Origin: Lactiplantibacillus dongliensis
GTDB lineage: Bacteria > Bacillota > Bacilli > Lactobacillales > Lactobacillaceae
DNA: 44,885 bases
NCBI RefSeq assembly: GCF_005405105.1
Contig: NZ_BJDK01000030.1
Span: forward strand, 1 to 44,885
Reading direction: 5' to 3'
Below the pieces are notes generated by a model. The model saw nothing but the letters and a program-made list of their open reading frames with translations, was not told where the DNA came from and did not search any database. A program made the translations under genes and the position numbers. Of this stretch, positions 3,733 to 44,885 are shown in pieces (position 1 is the stretch's first letter; the number at the start of each line of letters is the position of its first letter).

Positions 3733-3812
3733 CTTGCCACTCTGGTTGGACCAGCATTGGCTGGAACGTGGTGGCTGCTGAGCCAATTCTGATCCGTCCG
3801 GCGTTAATTGGT
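3733..3812 (+). repeat. Reduced copy (A) of dispersed structured repeat
   Basis: It has both outer arms of the roughly 150-bp family (left arm ggaccagcattggct, right arm agccaattctgatcc) and the start of hairpin 1 (ggaacgtggtgg), but lacks hairpins 2 and 3. It sits in the divergent gap before the LPxTG adhesin gene. The right end has the family signature ccggcgttaatt. Confidence 0.8.
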
Positions 3813-7367: not shown

Positions 7368-7450
7368 AGCGTAAACTGGTTGCTTTAGCTAAATTAGCAA
7401 TCGGCTGGAACACGGTGGCTGCATTTATGAACTAAGCTTTACTAAGTTAT
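7368..7450 (+). repeat. Degenerate half copy (B) of structured repeat
   Basis: The segment gcaatcggctggaacacggtggctgc matches the left arm and hairpin 1 start of the dispersed family. The right arm is not recognisable. It lies in the convergent gap between two adhesin genes. Confidence 0.45.
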
Positions 7451-7482
7451 CAGACTAACTAATTCAGTTGCTTAAAGGTACT

Positions 7483-10400
7483 TTACTGATGACGCCGATT
7501 AAATGGCCAAACCAGCCAAGTCAGCAGCATCATACCTAAGACCGCTAACCAATTTGATGATTGTTCATTAGTTTGCGGTAAAATTACTGCTTTTTGATCC
7601 GCTGAGTGCTTTGCCTGACGTGGCATTAAAGTCGTTGATTGATGAACACCCGTCGTCGATTCCTTGTCGTCAGCTGGTTGATCAGCCTTCAATGGATTCG
7701 TCTGTCGCTTGAATTCAGTTCCATCATTGACGCCATCACCGTCTGTATCGGCTTCCAATGGATTCGTGTGTAATTTAACTTCTTCGCCATCACTTAACCC
7801 ATCACCATCTGTATCAGCTTTTAGTGGGTTCGTGTGAAGCTTAAGTTCTTCGCCATCACTCAGACCGTCACCATCCGTATCAGCTTTTAGTGGATTCGTG
7901 TGAAGCTTAAGTTCTTCGCCATCGCTCAGGCCGTCACCATCTGTATCGGCTTTTAGTGGATTCGTGTGAAGCTTAAGTTCTTCGCCATCACTCAGACCGT
8001 CACCATCTGTATCAGCCTTTAGTGGATTGGTATGAAGCTTAAGTTCTTCACCATCGCTTAAACCATCACCATCCGTATCGGCTTTCAATGGATTCGTACC
8101 ATTCTTAAGTTCTTCGGCGTCACTCACACCATCACCATCTGTATCGGCTTTTAGTGGATTCGTACCGTTCTTGAGTTCTTCGGCATCGCTTAAGCCGTCA
8201 CCATCCGTATCAGTCTTCAATGGATTCGTACCATTCTTAAGTTCTTCGGCGTCACTTAAACCATCGCCATCCGTATCAGTCTTCAATGGATTCGTACCGC
8301 TCTTGAGTTCTTCAGCATCACTTAAACCATCGCCATCCGTATCAGCCTTCAATGGATTCGTACTGTTCTTGAGCTCTTCAGCGTCGCTTAAACCGTCACC
8401 ATCCGTATCAGCCTTTAATGGATTCGTACCGTTCTTAAGTTCTTCAGCGTCACTCACACCGTCACCATCCGTATCAGCCTTCAATGGGTTCGTACCGTTC
8501 TTGAGCTCTTCAGCGTCGCTCACGCCATCGCCATCTGTATCGGCTTTCAACGGATTTGTGCCATCCTTTAGCTCTTCGGCATCACTTAATCCATCGCCAT
8601 CTGTATCGGCTTTCAGTGGATTCGTGCCGGCCTTAAGTTCTTCGGCGTCACTCACGCCATCACCATCCGTATCGGCTTTCAGTGGATTTGTACCGTTCTT
8701 AAGTTCTTCGGCATCACTTAAACCGTCACCATCCGTATCGGCTTTTAGTGGATTCGTACCGTTCTTGAGCTCTTCAGCGTCACTCACACCATCGCCATCT
8801 GTATCAGCTTTCAATGGATTCGTACCGTCTTTGAGTTCCTCGGCATCACTCACACCATCGCCATCTGTATCAGCTTTTAATGGATTCGTGCCATCCTTTA
8901 GCTCTTCAGCGTCACTCACACCATCACCGTCTGTATCAGCTTTCAATGGATTCGTGCCATCTTTTAGCTCTTCAGCATCACTCACACCATCACCATCCGT
9001 ATCAGCTTTCAACGGATTCGTGCCATCCTTTAACTCTTCAGCGTCATTAACACCATCGCCATCTGTATCGGTCTTTAAGGGATCCGTCCCGGCTTTAATT
9101 TCAGCTTCATCACTGACACCATCGCCGTCCGTATCAGCTTTCAATGGGTCAGTCCCATCAGCCAATTCCGTCGCACTTGACACGCCATCATGATCAGGGT
9201 CGGCTGAATAATGCGTGATTTCTGGGTTTTGCGGATCAATCACTTTGACCACTGTCGCAGCCCCAGATTCATCCGGCAAGACGGTCCCAGTACTAAATGG
9301 CGCAATCGTTTGTGGGTTGACCGGCTGACCGTCAACTATCTCACTGACCGTCTGCGTATTGGTCTTGGGATCATTTGTATAGACCGTGGTATGGCCATCA
9401 TTCCATTCTTTAGTCACTTTGACGACGTTACCATCTGTATCTTTTTCGGTAATCGTCACGTTGCCATCAGCATCAACCGTATGACCCAGAATCTTCAACT
9501 CACCGGGAATAACTTGCACATCATAGTTTGGATTCATCGCCGCTACTTGAACCGGATACGTCCCCACAGCTTGACGCGTTGGCCGTTGATAGCGAAGTCT
9601 TAAGCTGGATAACGTTTCACCGGACTTTAAGGAGCCGTCAGTTAGTTGAACAACTGTCTGCGGATCAGCGGTACCGGCATATTTATCAGCGTCATCGACC
9701 CGTAACGTTAACAGGCGTCTGGTCACGTTTAACCGACCAAACAACATCCGATTAAAGGTATAGTTCGGATAGGCCGCCGCAACTTTTTTCTGTGCCAAGT
9801 CGGTCAATTCAATCTGGTAATCGCCACCCGCTTGCAAATCGTTTAATGGTACAATCTGTTGCTGAGCATCGACCACTTGGAAGTCACTTTGCTGCAGGTT
9901 ACTTGGCATATCCGGAATACTCAATGTGCCGGTAAAGCTTGGTAGATCACCATAAGTCGTGGCCGCTGATGCAACCGTAACGTGGGCCGCTGCCGGCTTA
10001 ATCGTCAAGTATCCTGTCGAAATAGCCACAATATAATTAGCACTAGTCGCGGTCCCGTTAATCTCATACTTGCCGACATTTTCACCTGGTTGACGAGTCA
10101 GCGTCACCCCTAAATCAGTCTCAGTATCGTGACCAACTAACACCGCGCTTGGATCGGCTAAAGTAAACGTTGGATCAGCTTCACCATACGTTTTGGTCAA
10201 CTCATTGGCCTGAACACTGACTTGCTTCTTTAAGATAACTAATGTCCCCGTACCGATTTTTACCGTGTAATTCTTACTATCACTAGTCCCACTAATCGTA
10301 TAATCGCCAGCTTGATCACCAGCAACTCGCGTCAAAGTCACCCCTAAAGCCGACTCAGTATCACCGTTGACTAACACCTTTTGCGCATCAGCGGTTAAAC

Positions 10401-13400
10401 TCAACGTTGCTGCGGGCGTCCCATAAGTCGTGGTACTGTCAGCCACTGTAACACTAACATCACGCTTAACAATTGTCAGTTTGCTAGGTGTTACGGTGAC
10501 CTGATAATTTTTACTCTTACTCGTCCCAGTAATCTCATAAACGCCGACATTTTCACCAGGCGCACGGGTCAACGTGATCTCAAGCACACTCGCGTCAGTA
10601 TCACTATTAACTAATACGCTGGTTGGCTTAACTAGGGTTAGGGTTGGATCGGCATCGCCATACGTTTTGGTTTGATCAGCCGCTGCCACCGTTACTGCCC
10701 GTTGATCAATGGTAAAGGTCCCCGGCGTGACGGTCACGTCATAGTTAGCGCTAGTTGCCTGACCAGTAATCTTATAACTACCAACGTCTTCGCCAGCTAC
10801 TCGCTGCAATGTCACGCCTAATACGTTAGCATCGGTATCGCCATTAACTAGCACATCGGTTGGCTTCGTCAAACTTAATTCAGGATCTGCCGCGCCGTAA
10901 GTCTTACCCGTATTAGTCACCGCTACCGTCACTGGTCGTTTATTAATCGTCATAGTCCCGTTAATAAACGTTATGGCATAATTGGTATCATCGGACTGTC
11001 CGGTAATCGTATAACGTCCAACTGTTTCACCAGCATCCCGATTGGTTTTAATATTTAAAGCTGCGACATCATCGCCGTTCGCTAAACTATCAGGCGCAAT
11101 CGTATAGGTTAACGCTGCGTCTTGATCACCATACTGCTTAGTCTGATTATCGACTGTTACCGTCAAGGCTTTGGCCGCAATTACAAACTGCCCAAGCGTA
11201 ACTGTCACGGCATAATTGTGACTCGTGGACGTTCCGCTAATCGCGTAAGTACCCACACTTTCACCAGACAAGCGTGTTAAGGTCACCGCCAAGTCAGCTT
11301 CGCTATCACCCTTAACCAGACTATCTGTGGGGATTAATAACTGTAACTTAGGATCAGTCGCACCATAGACTTTACCATTATCGATTGCCTTAACAGTCAC
11401 TGCCCGTGGCGTAATCTTCAAACTACCCTCATTAACTTTAACCGTATAATTACGATTATCCGCCTGACCGCTAATCGTATATGTGCCGACATTTTCACTG
11501 GTATTGGTCCGCGTTAAATCTAGGTTTAAGTCACTCAATTGATCGTTATAGCCGAACGTGCCATCAGTCAGTTGAGCCGTATAGATTGGATTAGGATCGC
11601 CATAGGTCTTCGTTAATTGATCAGCCGTCACCGTGATTGCCCGTGGCGTAATCGTAAAGGTCCCGGGGTTAACCGTAACAGTATAGTTCTGATTAGCTGA
11701 TGTCCCGGTAATCTTATAAGTTCCTTGATTTTGTCCAGTTTCACGCGTTAAGTCAACGGCTAACGTCTTCAACGTGTCGCCATCAACTAACCCCGCCGCT
11801 GAAGCTGCCGTTAACGTCAGCGTTGGATCAGCGTCACCGTAAGTCTTTTGACTATTGGCTGCCGTCACGGTTATCGCTAATGGCGTCACCGTTAATTTAG
11901 CCGTTGCAAATGGCGCTGCTTCGGTATAATTCTTATCTTGTGTCAATGCAGCTTGCGCAGCGGCGGTAAACCGAAGCGTGTAGTCGCCACCGACTTGTAA
12001 CTGCTTAGCTGACATCAAGTCGCCAGTTTTAGTCTCAATGACTTCAAAATCACTTTGGCTAAGCGGATGGGCAGCCTTGGCTGCGCCAAAATCACCCTTA
12101 AATTCCGGAAAATCACTCCCGTAAACGACCGAAGCATCAGCGAGACTAGTCGTTGTCGCTAATGGCTTAATTGAGAACGTTCCAGGTGTCACTGTAATCG
12201 TATAGTTAGGATTTTCAGTATCCTTGGCGTCTCGCATAATCGCGTAGTCGCCAACAGCTTCCCCAGTATCGCGAACTAATTGGACACCTAGGTCCGACAA
12301 CTTATCTTGATTAGCTAAATTCTTGGCTGAGTCAGCAGTCAAGGTTAACACCGGATCAGGATCGCCATAGGTTTTACTAATATCTTTTGCGACCACCGTG
12401 ATTGCTAACTTTTTGACACTTAAGGTCGCCGTTCTAAACGTAAAGGCGTAATTGCCATCCGCCGTCAAAGCAGCTTGTGCGGCGGCGGTGTACTGAATCG
12501 TATAATCGCCGCCTGCTTGCAATTGGTCAGCGGTCACAACTTTGCCAGTCTGCTGATCAACGATTTCAAAATCAGCTTGATCCAGCTGATGTGCGGCATC
12601 AGCTCGGCCCAAATCACCCACAAAAGTCGGGGTATGGCCATAATCAACGGTTGCATCTGCCAATGTGGCCGTAACTGGTAAGGCACTAATCGTAAAGGTC
12701 CCGGGTGTGACTGTGACCTGATAGTTTGGATTCAGCGTCGCAGTCGGAGCTAACGTAATCGGATATTTACCCGCATCTTCACCAGTTGCCCGCACCAACT
12801 GAACCCCTAAACTCGCTAATGAATCTTTGTTAACTAAACCATCAATCGAATCGCTAGTTAAGTCCAGCACTGGTTCGCCAGGGTCACCATACGTTTTCGC
12901 ATAATCCTGCGCTGTCACAGTGATTGGCCGAGGCGTAACGACCAACTTAGCAGTGCCAAAGGTCGTAAAGTGATAGTTTTTATTTTTAGTTAACGCCGTT
13001 TGCGCGGCGTCAGTATACCGAATCGTATAGGTACCATTGACTTGAAGATCGCTGATGGTCACTTCTTTACCAGTCGCATCATCGACTTCAAAGTCAGTCT
13101 GGCTAAGCGTATCGTCAGTATCTTTATCCAGATTTCCGATAAAGTCCGGCCAGTTGCCGGTTGCATCGCCACCATACACGATGGTGCCGTTAGCAATGCT
13201 AGGTGCTGTATCTAACGCTGTGATCGTTACAATTGCCGAGACATATAACCCTGCATTACTATTCGTGCTCAAGCTCTTTAAGTAAGCTCGGCCAGCATCA
13301 GTCAGCTTAAAGATATACGCACCAACATTTTTAGGCGTCACCGCGACCCCATTAGGATCATCAGTATCAAAGTACTGATAATAATCCGGATTATTGAGCT

Positions 13401-16044
13401 TTTGTAATTGCGTCTCCGTTACGGCCCCAAAATCCTTTCCCAAACTAACCGTTGGGAACTGAAGCGGCGTACTACCATAGACCTGTGACCATGAATTAAA
13501 TGTCGCTAAGCTATTAGTCGCAGCTTGATTAGTCGTCGTCATTTCCGTTAAATCAGCTTTGAAACTCACTAACAGGTTTTTAACTTCTTCCAACCGGGCA
13601 TAGCCGGTCTGACCGTCATGATAGATTGTCGTGGCATCAGTCTGCGCTTCCGCATCTTCAAAGGCCGCTTTCGCTTGGCCGTTGGTAGCTGAAACCTGAT
13701 TATAAATATCTACAACCGAATCTAATAACGTCTTGGCACTGTCTTTTTGAGCTTGCGTCAACCCGGACAGCGCAATAAAGTCATCGTAGAGCTTTTGAGT
13801 CTGGGCTTTATAATCATCCGCCTTAGCTTGATTCTCAGTCGCTTGTTGATCCCAATAAGTTAAGGTCGCCGCGGTCGGCAATAGAATACTGCCCGTCGTT
13901 TGCGGCTGTTGCGCATCAGTCGAATCCGTCGCTCCAGCAGTCCCCACCGTTGACCAGTAGTAGTCGGCGTTCGTAATCACTTTGCCACCACTAGTCACAG
14001 CTTGTCCGCTACCATCAACTAAAACCTGTTGATTCAAATCATCGGTAATCGATTGCCCGGTCCCGACCGTTGCTTTCGTCGTAACCGTCTGACCGTCCAC
14101 CGTCTTCCCAGTACTGGTATAATAATGGCCAATCGGATTGGCAGTGGTACTCGTTGTCTTGGTTGGATCCGTCTGCGTGGTCCCTTGATCAATTGGTAGG
14201 TTATCATGCGCAACCTTGTCACCATTAACTGGCGCAGCTAATGTAACCGTCGTTGGCGTATAACCCGGAATAGAGACAATCACCGGTTCACCAGCCACCG
14301 CCACGACCGTTACTGGATCTAAGCCCGGAATTGCTTGTTGAGTTGCTGCATCAACCGGCGTTACTTCGGCAGTAAAGGCCAACCGGACCGGGACCGTTAA
14401 GCTTTGATCATCGGCATCCGTCACCGTATAAGTGTAATAAGTTGCATCGGCAATCGCTTTATTGCTAGTACCGCCGATATAATGAACCGTGCCACTATTG
14501 TCAGTAGCGTTGGTCCCATCGATGACGTAGATATTCCCCGCTGAATCAGTCGGCAACACCGTCACTAATGACGGATCTTTAATTTCACCATCCGCTACCG
14601 CCCGATCAGCCGCCGCTTGGGTAGAGAAGACCGAAATCGTATCCCCAATGTTGGCGACCGCCGTGACATCGGTATCATTAAGTAAAGCATCTTGATCGGC
14701 CGAATCCACTAACTTAACGGTTAATGGAATGGTTTTTGGCGTATAACTGAATTTATCTACTTTAGCCGAATAATCGTTTTGGTTCCCACCGGTCGAGGCG
14801 GAGACTGAAATCGAATAACCGGTACTGACATCACTAATCTTACGCGTTAATGTCGCGGTTCCCAAAACCACCGTCAGCATTTGTGTGGTCGCATTGTAGT
14901 TCATCGTGAAATTATTTAACGTGTTAACACTGCGATCGTTTAAACCTGCTTGACTAGCGGCTTTCCAATCATTTTTATCAGGATATTGCAAATCACCACT
15001 GCCATCAGTAGTTCGCCAACCAACATAGGGCCTATCACTAGGATCATTGTAATTTGAATTATAATATTCATCAAAGACTAAACCAAAAGCATTACTCAAA
15101 CCGCCCAATCCTAACAGACCACCTGAACCGCCCTTAGCCGCTTCAACTGGGTTACATGGTGCAAAGATAAAGCCAACACTATCACCCCCACCATGATCCT
15201 TACTCCCAATCCCCAAAGCACCACTCATCGAGAAATTATGACTAAAGTCAATTTCATGCTCGAAAGAAACATGCGCGGATTGATGCCCTTGAATACTCGT
15301 TGAATCACCAGGTGAAGAATAGTATTTGTGCGGATCATTACTTGTTAGTGGAAATGACCCATCTGCCGCAATCTTTTGCGTCACCGTGTTATCAGTTGGA
15401 TCATCATCTTGATCATTACCACCACGGTTTTCAACCGTATCAGTAAAGTGATCGGCAATTTGATCCGCAGTTAAATTAACCTGGGTCGTGTCTACCCCAA
15501 TATTAGTTGGTTGACTGGTCGATAAAACGGGGTATTTATTAGTCGGCGCTGATTGAACAACCGCGGCACTTCGCACGGATCTAGCTTGCATTAATGACCG
15601 GGGGCTAACAGCTCTGGCACTGGTCTGAATGGGCGCTACGGCGCTACTACCGCTAGTGGCAGCCGATGACGCTTGTGAAGTCGTCGAAGTTGCGATTGAA
15701 CCCGCACTACTAGTGGCTTGCGATTGCGTTGAAGCCGTTGTCGGTGTAGCGGCGCTATTTTTCGGCGCCGTTTGACTAGCCGGCGCCGCTGATTTAGCTG
15801 TGCGGTCTGGAGCTGTCGACTGCTGACTAGTCGCCGTTGACTGGGTCGCTGGGGCCGTTGACGTCACAACAGTCCCAGTCGTCGCGGCACTTGCCGTCTG
15901 AATCTGAACCGCCTGCGCCAAGGTTAGTGCTGATAACGTTACGACTAAGCCGCCAAAGATCCGCGTCTTCACACACCATCCCGTATGTCCTTTATACAAA
16001 ATAAAGTGCTTTTTAATTTCTTGACTGATCAATCTTGGTTTCAA
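7483..16044 (-). CDS. Giant LPxTG adhesin: L-type lectin, MBG repeats, TSP type 3 repeats
   Basis: A 2853-aa surface protein. In order: a divergent KxYKxGKxW-type signal (FILYKGHTGW, about 16-50), an Ala/Ser/Thr linker, an L-type lectin-like domain (about 195-435, with GDSVGFIFAP and GLVFDEYYN), a mixed region with a helical, probably coiled-coil stretch (about 720-850), about 11 MBG-type repeats with the pattern VT..A.....TYGD.DP.L...GTFTI plus four related repeats (about 943-2188), about 23 near-identical 22-aa repeats DTDGDGVSDAEELKxGTNPLKA (about 2279-2785) and LPQTNEQ with a membrane tail. DxDxDG motifs are classic calcium sites, so the stalk should stiffen with Ca2+. The start is TTG with AGGGG nine bases upstream. 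The lectin domain suggests glycan binding; the target is unknown. Confidence 0.92.
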   Translation of the reverse strand: MKPRLISQEIKKHFILYKGHTGWCVKTRIFGGLVVTLSALTLAQAVQIQTASAATTGTVVTSTAPATQSTATSQQSTAPDRTAKSAAPASQTAPKNSAATPTTASTQSQATSSAGSIATSTTSQASSAATSGSSAVAPIQTSARAVSPRSLMQARSVRSAAVVQSAPTNKYPVLSTSQPTNIGVDTTQVNLTADQIADHFTDTVENRGGNDQDDDPTDNTVTQKIAADGSFPLTSNDPHKYYSSPGDSTSIQGHQSAHVSFEHEIDFSHNFSMSGALGIGSKDHGGGDSVGFIFAPCNPVEAAKGGSGGLLGLGGLSNAFGLVFDEYYNSNYNDPSDRPYVGWRTTDGSGDLQYPDKNDWKAASQAGLNDRSVNTLNNFTMNYNATTQMLTVVLGTATLTRKISDVSTGYSISVSASTGGNQNDYSAKVDKFSYTPKTIPLTVKLVDSADQDALLNDTDVTAVANIGDTISVFSTQAAADRAVADGEIKDPSLVTVLPTDSAGNIYVIDGTNATDNSGTVHYIGGTSNKAIADATYYTYTVTDADDQSLTVPVRLAFTAEVTPVDAATQQAIPGLDPVTVVAVAGEPVIVSIPGYTPTTVTLAAPVNGDKVAHDNLPIDQGTTQTDPTKTTSTTANPIGHYYTSTGKTVDGQTVTTKATVGTGQSITDDLNQQVLVDGSGQAVTSGGKVITNADYYWSTVGTAGATDSTDAQQPQTTGSILLPTAATLTYWDQQATENQAKADDYKAQTQKLYDDFIALSGLTQAQKDSAKTLLDSVVDIYNQVSATNGQAKAAFEDAEAQTDATTIYHDGQTGYARLEEVKNLLVSFKADLTEMTTTNQAATNSLATFNSWSQVYGSTPLQFPTVSLGKDFGAVTETQLQKLNNPDYYQYFDTDDPNGVAVTPKNVGAYIFKLTDAGRAYLKSLSTNSNAGLYVSAIVTITALDTAPSIANGTIVYGGDATGNWPDFIGNLDKDTDDTLSQTDFEVDDATGKEVTISDLQVNGTYTIRYTDAAQTALTKNKNYHFTTFGTAKLVVTPRPITVTAQDYAKTYGDPGEPVLDLTSDSIDGLVNKDSLASLGVQLVRATGEDAGKYPITLAPTATLNPNYQVTVTPGTFTISALPVTATLADATVDYGHTPTFVGDLGRADAAHQLDQADFEIVDQQTGKVVTADQLQAGGDYTIQYTAAAQAALTADGNYAFTFRTATLSVKKLAITVVAKDISKTYGDPDPVLTLTADSAKNLANQDKLSDLGVQLVRDTGEAVGDYAIMRDAKDTENPNYTITVTPGTFSIKPLATTTSLADASVVYGSDFPEFKGDFGAAKAAHPLSQSDFEVIETKTGDLMSAKQLQVGGDYTLRFTAAAQAALTQDKNYTEAAPFATAKLTVTPLAITVTAANSQKTYGDADPTLTLTAASAAGLVDGDTLKTLAVDLTRETGQNQGTYKITGTSANQNYTVTVNPGTFTITPRAITVTADQLTKTYGDPNPIYTAQLTDGTFGYNDQLSDLNLDLTRTNTSENVGTYTISGQADNRNYTVKVNEGSLKITPRAVTVKAIDNGKVYGATDPKLQLLIPTDSLVKGDSEADLAVTLTRLSGESVGTYAISGTSTSHNYAVTVTLGQFVIAAKALTVTVDNQTKQYGDQDAALTYTIAPDSLANGDDVAALNIKTNRDAGETVGRYTITGQSDDTNYAITFINGTMTINKRPVTVAVTNTGKTYGAADPELSLTKPTDVLVNGDTDANVLGVTLQRVAGEDVGSYKITGQATSANYDVTVTPGTFTIDQRAVTVAAADQTKTYGDADPTLTLVKPTSVLVNSDTDASVLEITLTRAPGENVGVYEITGTSKSKNYQVTVTPSKLTIVKRDVSVTVADSTTTYGTPAATLSLTADAQKVLVNGDTESALGVTLTRVAGDQAGDYTISGTSDSKNYTVKIGTGTLVILKKQVSVQANELTKTYGEADPTFTLADPSAVLVGHDTETDLGVTLTRQPGENVGKYEINGTATSANYIVAISTGYLTIKPAAAHVTVASAATTYGDLPSFTGTLSIPDMPSNLQQSDFQVVDAQQQIVPLNDLQAGGDYQIELTDLAQKKVAAAYPNYTFNRMLFGRLNVTRRLLTLRVDDADKYAGTADPQTVVQLTDGSLKSGETLSSLRLRYQRPTRQAVGTYPVQVAAMNPNYDVQVIPGELKILGHTVDADGNVTITEKDTDGNVVKVTKEWNDGHTTVYTNDPKTNTQTVSEIVDGQPVNPQTIAPFSTGTVLPDESGAATVVKVIDPQNPEITHYSADPDHDGVSSATELADGTDPLKADTDGDGVSDEAEIKAGTDPLKTDTDGDGVNDAEELKDGTNPLKADTDGDGVSDAEELKDGTNPLKADTDGDGVSDAEELKDGTNPLKADTDGDGVSDAEELKDGTNPLKADTDGDGVSDAEELKNGTNPLKADTDGDGLSDAEELKNGTNPLKADTDGDGVSDAEELKAGTNPLKADTDGDGLSDAEELKDGTNPLKADTDGDGVSDAEELKNGTNPLKADTDGDGVSDAEELKNGTNPLKADTDGDGLSDAEELKNSTNPLKADTDGDGLSDAEELKSGTNPLKTDTDGDGLSDAEELKNGTNPLKTDTDGDGLSDAEELKNGTNPLKADTDGDGVSDAEELKNGTNPLKADTDGDGLSDGEELKLHTNPLKADTDGDGLSDGEELKLHTNPLKADTDGDGLSDGEELKLHTNPLKADTDGDGLSDGEELKLHTNPLKADTDGDGLSDGEEVKLHTNPLEADTDGDGVNDGTEFKRQTNPLKADQPADDKESTTGVHQSTTLMPRQAKHSADQKAVILPQTNEQSSNWLAVLGMMLLTWLVWPFNRRHQ
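7690..9208 (-). repeat. 66-bp tandem repeats encoding TSP type 3 calcium stalk
   Basis: About 23 in-frame copies of a 66-bp unit (22 aa) lie inside the giant adhesin. The copies fall into subgroups: KDG, KNG and, nearest the C-terminus, KLHT units with DGEEL. This points to recent local duplications. Copy number is expected to vary between strains. Confidence 0.95.
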
Positions 16045-21299: not shown

Positions 21300-21435
21300 G
21301 TGCTAGGTCAAGTCGCCGGGTGCCAGCATTAACTCAGTGGTGTCGTTTGACTTACTTGGGTTCGCTTTTTAATATATACAGCCATCACCTTCCAGCCAAT
21401 TCTGGTCCAATGATAGCAGTCACACCAAGTAGGCG
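21300..21435 (-). repeat. Degenerate copy (C) of structured repeat
   Basis: Read on the minus strand it has the left arm (ggaccagaattggctgg), a decayed hairpin 1, a trace of hairpin 3 (aagtcaaacgacacc) and the right arm ending in cacccggcg. Hairpin 2 and one side of hairpin 3 are lost. It lies between ppsA and the csc promoter. Confidence 0.65.
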
Positions 21436-31361: not shown

Positions 31362-31448
31362 GTTAGTTAACACCGGGTGGGCCAGAATTAGCTTTCAAAC
31401 GCGGCCACCACGTTCCAGCCGATTCTGACCCAACCAGAGTGACAGTTT
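31362..31448 (-). repeat. Reduced copy (D) of dispersed structured repeat
   Basis: Minus-strand copy with the left arm gggtcagaatcggct, complete hairpin 1 (AACGTGG/CCGCGTT with a G-U pair) and right arm agctaattctggccc. Hairpins 2 and 3 are cleanly missing. It sits in a convergent gene gap. Confidence 0.85.
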
Positions 31449-31518
31449 AAGCCTACTAGCACCAAGCGTAATTGTTAACTCATTCAAGTAACCCTTTCAT
31501 TTTTCACTAGGATTAAAA

Positions 31519-33476: not shown

Positions 33477-33720
33477 TCATTTAATTAGACGATAGTATTG
33501 ATTAGGTGACGTCGGTGCTCCTGCAACTCTCTCCAAAATTCCCATTACAGTTAAATGTTTTAGTGCATTTCTAACCGAACTCAGACTATAATTATCTACA
33601 GCTGCCGACAATTCACGCGTACGGACTGTTCCATGCTCATACGCGAGCCCCACAGCTGCCTGTTCAATAAAGTTTAATTGTTTCCAGTCTTCTCCAATTT
33701 TTGATTCTAAATCATCATTT
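33477..33720 (-). pseudogene. C-terminal winged-helix fragment of a broken gene
   Basis: The frame reads DDLESKIGEDWKQLNFIEQA, then an HTH-like stretch (TRELSAAVDNYSLSSVRNAL, then KHLTVMGILERVAG) to a stop at 33477-33479. This is what the C-terminal winged helix of Fic-type or AlbA/ATPase-type regulatory proteins looks like (family not certain). There is no start codon or upstream domain. Just upstream the frame runs into a 40-bp tandem array; in another frame the array reads KENYGAVASIVEL, which could have continued into DDLESK before a frameshift. The gene therefore seems broken by repeat growth and deletion. Confidence 0.6.
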
Positions 33721-33980
33721 GAGCTCTACAATACTAGCTACAGCTCCGTAATTCTCTTTCAAGCTCTACAGTACTAGCCACAGCTCCGTAATTCTCTTTC
33801 AAGCTCTACAATACTAGCTACAGCTCCGTAATTCTCTTTCAAGCTCTACAATACTAGCTACAGCTCCATAATTCTCTTTTGAGCTCTGCAATACTAGCCA
33901 CAGCTCCATAATTCTCTTTTGAGCTCTGCAATACTAGCCACAGCTCCGTAATTCTCTTTCAAGCTCTACAATATTAACTA
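33721..33980 (-). repeat. 40-bp tandem repeat array, 6.5 units
   Basis: Six full units of 40 bp (unit starts 33721, 33761, 33801, 33841, 33881, 33921) and a half unit. Each has the form [ga]agctct[ag]ca.tacta then gc[tc]acagctcc[ga]taat, then tctctttt or tctctttc. Units differ at a few shared positions (g/a, t/c), so homogenisation is partial. Since 40 is not a multiple of three, each unit shifts the frame. Confidence 0.95.
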
Positions 33981-34040
33981 CTGTTTTAAATACTAAGTTT
34001 ACTTTTTAGTATACCAGCTTTTAAATACTATATATGTACC

Positions 34041-36725: not shown

Positions 36726-36828
36726 CTCCCTTTAAAACGCTCCCTTTCATTGTAACTGAAAACGGTTTAAAAAAATATGAAACTGTGATGCTTATTTCAA
36801 CTTTCTATGGGTTTATTTTCATGAAAGC

Positions 36829-36982
36829 TTGCCACTCTGGTTGGGTCAGAATCGGCTGGAACGTGGTGGTCGCGTTTTTGAGCCACGGGGCGGTCTCAAA
36901 AGCCGGGCTTTGACTTAGCCGGAAGGTCACCGACTAAGTCAAACGACACCACTGAGCCAATTCTGACCCGCCCGGCGTTATC
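36829..36982 (+). repeat. Full copy (E) of dispersed structured repeat
   Basis: Complete element. Outer stem gggtcagaatcggct (36843-36857) with agccaattctgaccc (36955-36969); hairpin 1 AACGTGG/TCGCGTT; hairpin 2 TTTTGAG/CTCAAAA; hairpin 3 TTTGACTTAG/CTAAGTCAAA. It starts gccactctggttggg and ends cccggcgtta. Confidence 0.9.
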
Positions 36983-37137
36983 TTAACGATGTATTTTTAG
37001 CTAGACGGTTAATTTTTAAAATACCCAGCTCTACCAATAACCGTCAGATAAACAGTTTTGAAGACTAAGATAATTTCAAAACTAACCCTTATTGTCCGTG
37101 CCCAGCTCATCCAACTAATAGCTAGCCCAGTCGGAAC

Positions 37138-37293
37138 TGGCCAGAAATTAACGCCGTGGCGAGCCAGTTAGCCGGTGATTTCCCCGGCTTAGTGGCTGGG
37201 CCGACCTTTAAGACTTGGGTTCTAGGCTTAAAGGCGCCTGACTGACCGTACTTCGGCTGTCAGGTCCGCCCCACCGCGTTAAATTTCTGGACA
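37138..37293 (+). repeat. Second structured element, same topology, different sequence
   Basis: The outer stem CCAGAAATTAACGCCGTGG (37141-37159) pairs with CCACCGCGTTAAATTTCTGG (37271-37290). Inside are three hairpins: AGCCA..AGCCGG with CCGGCT..TGGCT (37162-37197), CCTTTAAG with CTTAAAGG (about 37204-37234) and CCTGAC with GTCAGG (about 37238-37264). It lies between the other element and the ROK gene terminator. Confidence 0.85.
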
Positions 37294-37320
37294 GTGGAGA
37301 CGACAATCGATAACACAATA

Positions 37321-37368
37321 AAAAACGTGTCGGTAACTAAGGTCAACCCAAAGTTACCGACACGTTAG
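37321..37368 (-). terminator. Terminator of ROK regulator gene
   Basis: A perfect 15-bp stem (AACGTGTCGGTAACT with AGTTACCGACACGTT region) followed by TTTTT on the minus strand, about 20 bp after the stop. Confidence 0.92.
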
Positions 37369-41425: not shown

Positions 41426-41580
41426 CGCTCCGGGGGGACTGGATTTGACGCTGGAACGTGGTGGCCACGTTTATGAGCCAAAAATGCGGTCTCATAAGCC
41501 GGGCTTTCTCTAGACCGAGTAACCCACTCGCTCAAGAGAAATTTCACCACTGAGCGTCATCCAGTCCCCCCTACGCTAAT
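41426..41580 (+). repeat. Full copy (G) of dispersed structured repeat
   Basis: Outer stem ggggggactggat..gacgct with agcgtcatccagtcccccc; hairpin 1 AACGTGG/CCACGTT; hairpin 2 TTATGAG/CTCATAA; hairpin 3 TTTCTC/GAGAAA. It ends ctacgctaattaatt. It lies between the convergent cfa and TauE/SafE genes. Confidence 0.9.
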
Positions 41581-44361: not shown

Positions 44362-44521
44362 TGCCGCTCCGGGTGGTCTGGCTCGATGCTGGAACGTGGT
44401 GGCCACGTTTGGAAGCCTTAAGGGCGGTCTTCCAAGCCGGGCTTTGACTAAGACCGGGAAAGTCACCCGCTCTAAGTCAAACGACACCACTGAGCATCAT
44501 CCAGCCCACCCTGCGCTAATT
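44362..44521 (+). repeat. Full copy (H) of dispersed structured repeat
   Basis: Outer stem gggtggtctggctcgatgct with agcatcatccagcccaccc; hairpin 1 AACGTGG/CCACGTT; hairpin 2 TTGGAAG/CTTCCAA; hairpin 3 TTTGACT..AGA with TCT.AGTCAAA. It ends tgcgctaattaat. Confidence 0.92.
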
Positions 44522-44734: not shown

Positions 44735-44885
44735 TAACGCCGGGCGGGTCAGAATTGGCTCAGTGGTGTCGTTTATCTTAGACGGTGATTTTCCGCCTTA
44801 GATAAAGCCCGGCTTATGAGACCGCCCTGTGGCTCATAACCGCGGCCACCACGTTCCAGCCGATGCTGGCCCAACCAGAGTGGCA
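44735..44885 (-). repeat. Full copy (I) of dispersed structured repeat, inverted to copy H
   Basis: Minus-strand copy reaching the window edge. Left arm gggccagcatcggct, right arm agccaattctgaccc; hairpin 2 TTATGAG/CTCATAA; hairpin 3 TTTATCTAAG with CTAAGATAAA. The 213-bp space between copies H and I shows no gene. Confidence 0.9.

Follow-up and report, generated by a model that had tools for sequence, protein, structure and literature searches.

The window analysed here, 44,885 nucleotides of Lactiplantibacillus dongliensis that make up one whole contig of a 3.1-Mb genome (hereafter G000), carries repeated copies of a folded module of approximately 150 nt with three or four hairpins. Four full copies had been described in the initial annotation; all four lie at the coordinates given there and contain the stems quoted, although one of these, GGGTGGTCTGG/CCAGCCCACCC, was loosely stated and includes one mismatch. 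Interrogation of the window with a covariance model (defined below) returned nine matches at E-values up to 1, comprising the four full copies (121-129 bits) and five deleted, degenerate or variant copies (13-36 bits), which are inventoried in Table 1 together with the inserted unit that holds the reported copy. Three features had escaped the initial reading: the arrangement of modules as inverted pairs, the four-hairpin variant (about 37141-37290) with which the reported copy is paired, and the identity of the unit as a transposon. The partner was matched in part by the model (37161-37238, minus strand, 26 bits), and the DNA fold of the region containing it (37085-37330, minus strand) has a z-score of -5.2. 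Six folds of the four full copies, computed with DNA parameters, gave z-scores from -3.4 to -9.6, with none or one of 200 shuffled sequences equally stable; in the two copies for which both strands were tried, both folded as DNA.

Table 1. Copies of the module and associated features in the window
Feature	Position	Strand	Remarks
Reported copy (three hairpins; module 1 within its element)	36829..36982	+	covariance model 123 bits
Four-hairpin variant, convergent partner of reported copy	37141..37290 (approx.)	-	outer stem CCAGAAATTTAACGC/GCGTTAATTTCTGG on minus strand
Inserted unit holding reported copy (ends approximate)	36783..37360	.	present in window and G017; missing in seven other congeners, where a short spacer lies between flanks of 72-81% identity
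Full module, second outer-stem type	41426..41575	+	121 bits
Full module, second outer-stem type, convergent with 44735 copy	44362..44515	+	124 bits
Full module, contig ends inside copy	44735..44885	-	129 bits
Deletion derivative; outer and inner stem arms retained, hairpins 2 and 3 gone	3735..3809	+	36 bits (match 3741-3803)
Deletion derivative	31371..31469	-	16 bits (match 31371-31438); terminal inverted repeat 31453-31469, 1 mismatch
Degenerate copy	21312..21415	-	25 bits
Degenerate copy	7385..7515	+	13 bits, E 0.027, weak

As had been noted, the copies lie between called genes: over 435 kb of this genome, in stretches picked for holding copies, called genes take up 82% of the sequence, and 3 of 58 units share more than 60 nt with a called ORF. 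The window also contains tandem repeats of other kinds. About 21 or more copies of a 66-bp unit (7583-9202) lie inside a minus-strand ORF (7483-16044, 2853 aa) that also bears repeats of approximately 234-237 bp at 10032-12927 and would encode a repetitive protein; seven or more 40-bp repeats occupy 33670-34029, outside ORFs of at least 90 aa.

Covariation and block-wise turnover of the stems

The covariance model was based on an alignment (A2) of 50 diverse modules with a mean column identity of 60%, obtained from 52 rows by removal of a chance match (L092:7420) and a degenerate copy (L142:710). These were aligned by sequence rather than by structure, and the structure itself was derived from the same alignment. 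Covariation among the 50 modules is strong, with a score of 0.566 compared with 0.158 +/- 0.009 in shuffled alignments and no more than 0.131 when the partner was slid. Pairing was retained in 92.9% of cells, double-sided change was found in 33 of 39 pairs, and none of 500 shuffles reached any of the five measures. Constant parts of the module include GGAAC ahead of the inner stem, TGAGC behind it, and the edges of the hairpin 2 loop. Even the inner stem, GTGGTG/CACCAC, varies; a second module type has, for instance, GCCRTG/CAYGGC. Across genera, loops and junctions (GGAAC, TGAGC and others) are unchanged and the outermost sequences differ.

The hairpins change as whole blocks. Of 77 modules in one genome (88 less 11 with gaps), 66 have perfect complementarity between the basal arms of hairpin 3; 12 arm sequences are represented, and the types of hairpin 2 and hairpin 3 are found in many combinations. 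Entire hairpins have also been lost precisely between stem arms, both in the window (3735-3809) and at L003:950 compared with L053:6800, a pattern that slippage of the replication machinery on a DNA hairpin would be expected to produce. The initial annotation had taken compensatory change to mean that pairing is selected. Selection is probable, but it is not the sole route to such a pattern, since block-wise change could also arise from arm-to-arm copying or from exchange between copies; for part of the covariation, the block-wise turnover makes arm-to-arm copying a serious alternative. In its full form this explanation holds that the matched changes arose by mutation and not by selection, both arms being rewritten through template switching between arms or conversion between copies. 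We regard it as somewhat unlikely, weighing the perfectly complementary arms, the many hairpin combinations, the precise losses, and the rarity of mismatched intermediates in the outer pairs of hairpin 3 against the constancy of loops and junctions across genera, which mutation alone leaves unexplained and for which selection or recent spread is needed.

A further peculiarity of hairpin 3 concerns A2 columns 95 and 121, where the pentamer CTAAG often occurs on both arms and creates an A.A mismatch in mid-stem. That position is paired in the reported copy, and the rest of the stem covaries.

Paired modules, terminal repeats and target duplications

The unit of approximately 150 nt is half of a larger element. 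Neighbouring modules less than 600 bp apart in the G000 stretches that were picked for holding copies are convergent in 32 of 37 cases (32 +-, 3 ++, 2 --, 0 -+), as are 47 of 53 neighbours less than 800 bp apart at 60 loci mostly from other species or genera (47 +-, 5 ++, 1 --, 0 -+). The gap between paired modules, by model coordinates, is 40-69 bp in 27 of the 32 G000 pairs, of which one member is often the second module type. Close convergent pairs occur in four genera, Lactiplantibacillus, Lapidilactobacillus, Levilactobacillus and Companilactobacillus; at the Lacticaseibacillus loci no close pair was seen, modules there being single or more than 1 kb apart, and within the window no partner was found for the module at 41426. 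A typical unit in this genome spans approximately 390-410 bp in the order terminal repeat, module, short spacer, inverted module, terminal repeat, and 30 of 47 pairs of terminal inverted repeats (TIRs) enclose 350-449 bp. From a reading of open frames in spacers the element is without recognisable gene: nine spacers contained no frame longer than 84 codons, and one locus (L116) has a single 93-codon frame lying mostly within the spacer. Longer elements, with spacers of approximately 365-416 bp between convergent modules, occur in Lapidilactobacillus achengensis/luobeiensis (L050, L072, L088, L092, L116), and no clear gene was found in them.

In this genome and its close relatives, the pair sits inside terminal inverted repeats accompanied by target duplications of 8-9 bp. 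The terminal repeats, ACGCTTGGTGCTAGTTG, lie outside the modules at both ends and number 179 occurrences in G000 at up to two mismatches, compared with one for the reversed control. Duplications were scored in 43 elements with both ends, obtained from the 47 TIR pairs by dropping four as chance and not all independent (insertion L078:4521 = L165:12972 looks common to two species). Flanking direct repeats of 8 bp, at up to one mismatch, were present in 13 of the 43 (shuffled mean 0.32, maximum 3, in 2000 shuffles), of 9 bp in 10 (mean 0.29, maximum 3) and of 7 bp in five (mean 0.31, maximum 3); one each was found at 10 and 11 bp, and none at 6 or 12 bp. At loci beyond the type represented by G000, L. 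songbeiensis and G008, no target duplications were found among 45 pairs, mostly from other species or genera (47 less two without 90 bp of flank); there, an 8-mer is common to both flanks in 7 of 45, with a shuffled mean of 4.7 and a maximum of 10.

Comparison of empty sites between strains, also proposed in the initial annotation, identified one exact empty site with a target duplication. The 405-bp copy at L174:15949-16353 has ACCAGTTA on both sides, and the relative G017 has ACCAGTTA once, between flanks that are 97.7% and 99.3% identical. The copy at L165:3049 is also missing from G017, at a site too diverged to display a clean duplication. Two other candidate empty sites were rejected: L003/L053, where one copy has lost the hairpins that lay between its stem arms, and L006/L102, which is a degenerate remnant.

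Together, terminal repeats, duplications and the empty site identify the element as a MITE of the cut-and-paste type, that is, a non-autonomous transposon, and so uphold one of the readings offered in the initial annotation, a non-autonomous mobile element. The traits of MITEs given in PMC3049150 include inverted repeats at the termini, a base-paired structure and duplication of the target, and the route proposed there is movement by the transposases of resident IS elements. The element described here is short and without recognisable genes, and its G000 type has terminal inverted repeats, an empty site and target duplications. AT-richness, which PMC3049150 names as usual in MITEs but which does not define them, is absent: module G+C is 39-61% over the G000 stretches and 39-60% over the window.

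A unit without a gene, lying between genes and flanked by an 8-9 bp target duplication, would be the footprint of a DDE-type transposase, a cut-and-paste enzyme presumed to act in trans on the elements. Among the families searched in G000 (Y1, IS256 and ISL3), no transposase for the element was found. The IS256 and ISL3 families are absent from both G000 and G017, and no Y1 transposase occurs in G000, G013 or G020, all of which are element-rich. IS200/RAYT, IS256 and ISL3 transposases were accordingly rejected as mobilisers, being absent from G000. TIRs 3.4-5.3 kb apart were considered as candidate autonomous copies and set aside: in two of three such regions, inspection of the ORFs by eye revealed none resembling a transposase, and the third had a module search only.

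A REP/BIME-like element, moved in single-stranded form by a Y1 (RAYT/IS200) transposase, would accord with the inverted hairpin pairs, the intergenic location and the very high copy number. Among 21 genomes from the genus, 13 have Y1 genes; one of these is G017, which has three such genes and is as element-rich as G000. We nevertheless consider such movement extremely improbable given the three element-rich genomes that lack the enzyme, the target duplications, and the exact empty site with its duplication; Y1 enzymes are not known to make target duplications. The initial suggestion of a REP-like structure fails on its defining parts. As REP/BIME elements with RAYT transposases are described in PMC2817692 and PMC3733652, they share with the present element inverted pairs of folded repeats between genes and very many copies, but their unit is a palindrome of 20-40 bp compared with approximately 150 nt here, and this genome combines the absence of Y1 with the presence of target duplications.

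Wobble pairs and the nature of the folded molecule

In a structured RNA, G.U pairs should exceed A.C on the functional strand, A.C being the G.U of the other strand. Counts were made leaving out constant-mismatch and mostly-gap columns; two of the module alignments, A3 and A4, were fitted to the model and lean towards paired cells. RNase P of Lactobacillaceae served as a control (the best-scoring 30 of 41 matches), giving G.T in 7.1% and A.C in 1.3% of pair cells, and columns 55:9 (p 3.5e-9), with the bias reversed when read antisense. On the strand originally described, the modules gave G.T 1.7% and A.C 3.5% (columns 10:17) in A2; 1.7% and 5.1% (11:20) in 88 G000 modules; 2.0% and 2.6% (7:15) in 146 modules mostly from other species or genera; and 1.5% and 2.3% (7:12) in a set thinned to 80. 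Column bias was not significant in any module set (p 0.13-0.57). A second control, 6S RNA (24 of 61 genomes matched, 9 over the family cut-off and 15 below), gave G.T 8.1% and A.C 3.7% with only 11:8 columns, indicating that the column test has little power at such size. In hairpin 3 the seven outer pairs, which include three of the most variable in the family, contain no G.T and one A.C over the 146 modules.

Wobble that is rare, with G.T below A.C, makes a plus-strand RNA unlikely. Strong covariation would suit a family of small RNA genes on that strand, as the initial annotation had suggested, but G.T does not exceed A.C, in contrast to RNase P, the copies have transposon boundaries, and there is no Rfam match; we give this reading hardly any credence. 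The gene context of 54 units (14 convergent, 14 divergent, 26 tandem) is near background, the convergent class comprising 14 of 54 compared with 22 of 153, a difference short of significance (p 0.06). Such a context speaks against any fixed function within adjacent mRNAs.

The same counts bear on a further possibility, that the element is mobile as described but its module is a functional RNA transcribed from the minus strand, outward from the spacer through the module into the flank. On that strand the 88 G000 modules have G.U 5.1% compared with A.C 1.7%, favouring it in 20 of 31 unequal columns, and A.C exceeds G.T on the plus strand in each module set. The minus strand also has the better consensus energy (-103.8 compared with -97.4, and -110.3 compared with -105.8), and the reported copy folds more stably there. 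However, beyond the lack of column-level significance in every set, much of the excess is concentrated in a small number of columns (with the three most unequal left out, the counts are A.C 84 and G.T 50), and the units display no clear orientation preference relative to genes. We consider a minus-strand RNA unlikely.

Watson-Crick pairing dominates both strands, as expected of DNA, and folding of the module as DNA is favoured over an ordinary RNA, with a putative function. The explanation we consider probable is a family of MITEs whose two ends each comprise a folded module of approximately 150 nt in inverted orientation, the module working as folded DNA. We infer that the module is a folded-DNA subterminal structure, which may form as hairpins in single-stranded DNA or as a cruciform. 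Just inside the ends, the fold could serve as a recognition structure for the transposase or an accessory protein, with stems rewritten block-wise and loops that a protein might read retained; alternatively, it may help the element persist or copy. A broader proposition, which we consider somewhat unlikely, is that these form a class of double-ended transposable elements found throughout the Lactobacillaceae and recognised by structure. Their mobility or persistence would depend on a protein able to sense the shape of the approximately 150-nt DNA fold, with its conserved loops on freely changeable stems; outer ends would be interchangeable between genera, and a novel enzyme would move the elements. 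Covariation is usually taken as proof of a functional RNA, and these elements provide a natural test bed for separating DNA-level from RNA-level covariation.

Dispersal of the element and its relation to known repeats

A BLAST search with the reported copy retrieved, among the best 40 of 287 candidates, the copy itself and 39 further full or nearly full copies at 88-92% identity, and the model found 88 matches in 390.6 kb of other G000 stretches, picked for holding copies. Extrapolation of the nine matches in 45 kb suggests that modules and remnants in this genome number on the order of 600 and make up as much as about 3% of its length, in a family that is not in Rfam. Contigs of this assembly terminate within copies (the window at 44885; G000:C7:1-148), so that copy numbers from drafts are probably low.

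At the DNA level, 10 of 41 genomes including G000 were positive, all from the same genus. A pattern scan of named genomes retrieved at least 96 stretches, with Lactiplantibacillus, Lapidilactobacillus, Lacticaseibacillus, Levilactobacillus and Companilactobacillus among the matches listed. The search of relatives with the model, as the initial annotation had recommended for Lactiplantibacillus, located the element in 30 of 121 Lactobacillaceae genomes and 11 of 40 genera, under stricter filters and with at most the best 25 matches per genome; within genera its occurrence is patchy. Different sequences bound the module pair in Lapidilactobacillus, indicating that the module has a wider distribution than the ends. 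Collections of plasmids and phages contained no match to the reported copy, and in viral contigs the loop pattern had no exact counterpart. That no named family was recognised initially agrees with Rfam, which gave no match for the window. Three weak matches to eukaryotic RNA families (E 0.086-1.6) all fell under the gathering score, and at six other loci solely a TPP riboswitch and an SRP RNA were matched. No paper describing the element was found in the open-licence literature searched.

By description only, the element resembles bacterial MITEs in general, such as RUP and BOX of Streptococcus pneumoniae as presented in PMC3049150, in being short, intergenic, strongly folded and high in copy number. 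It differs from them in having an independent multi-hairpin module at each end, the two convergent, in the presence of that module in five named genera (among the matches listed) with different outer ends, in not being AT-rich, and in stems that covary almost without wobble; the terms "compensatory" and "covaria" are absent from the main text of that paper. Efa-1 of Enterococcus faecalis, as characterised in the relevant text of a 2008 stem-loop survey (PMC2267715), is likewise similar by description only, consisting of intergenic repeats of approximately 160 nt with two adjacent stem-loops. The sole Lactobacillus in the survey, according to the same text, was L. johnsonii, with one coding repeat, Lac-1.
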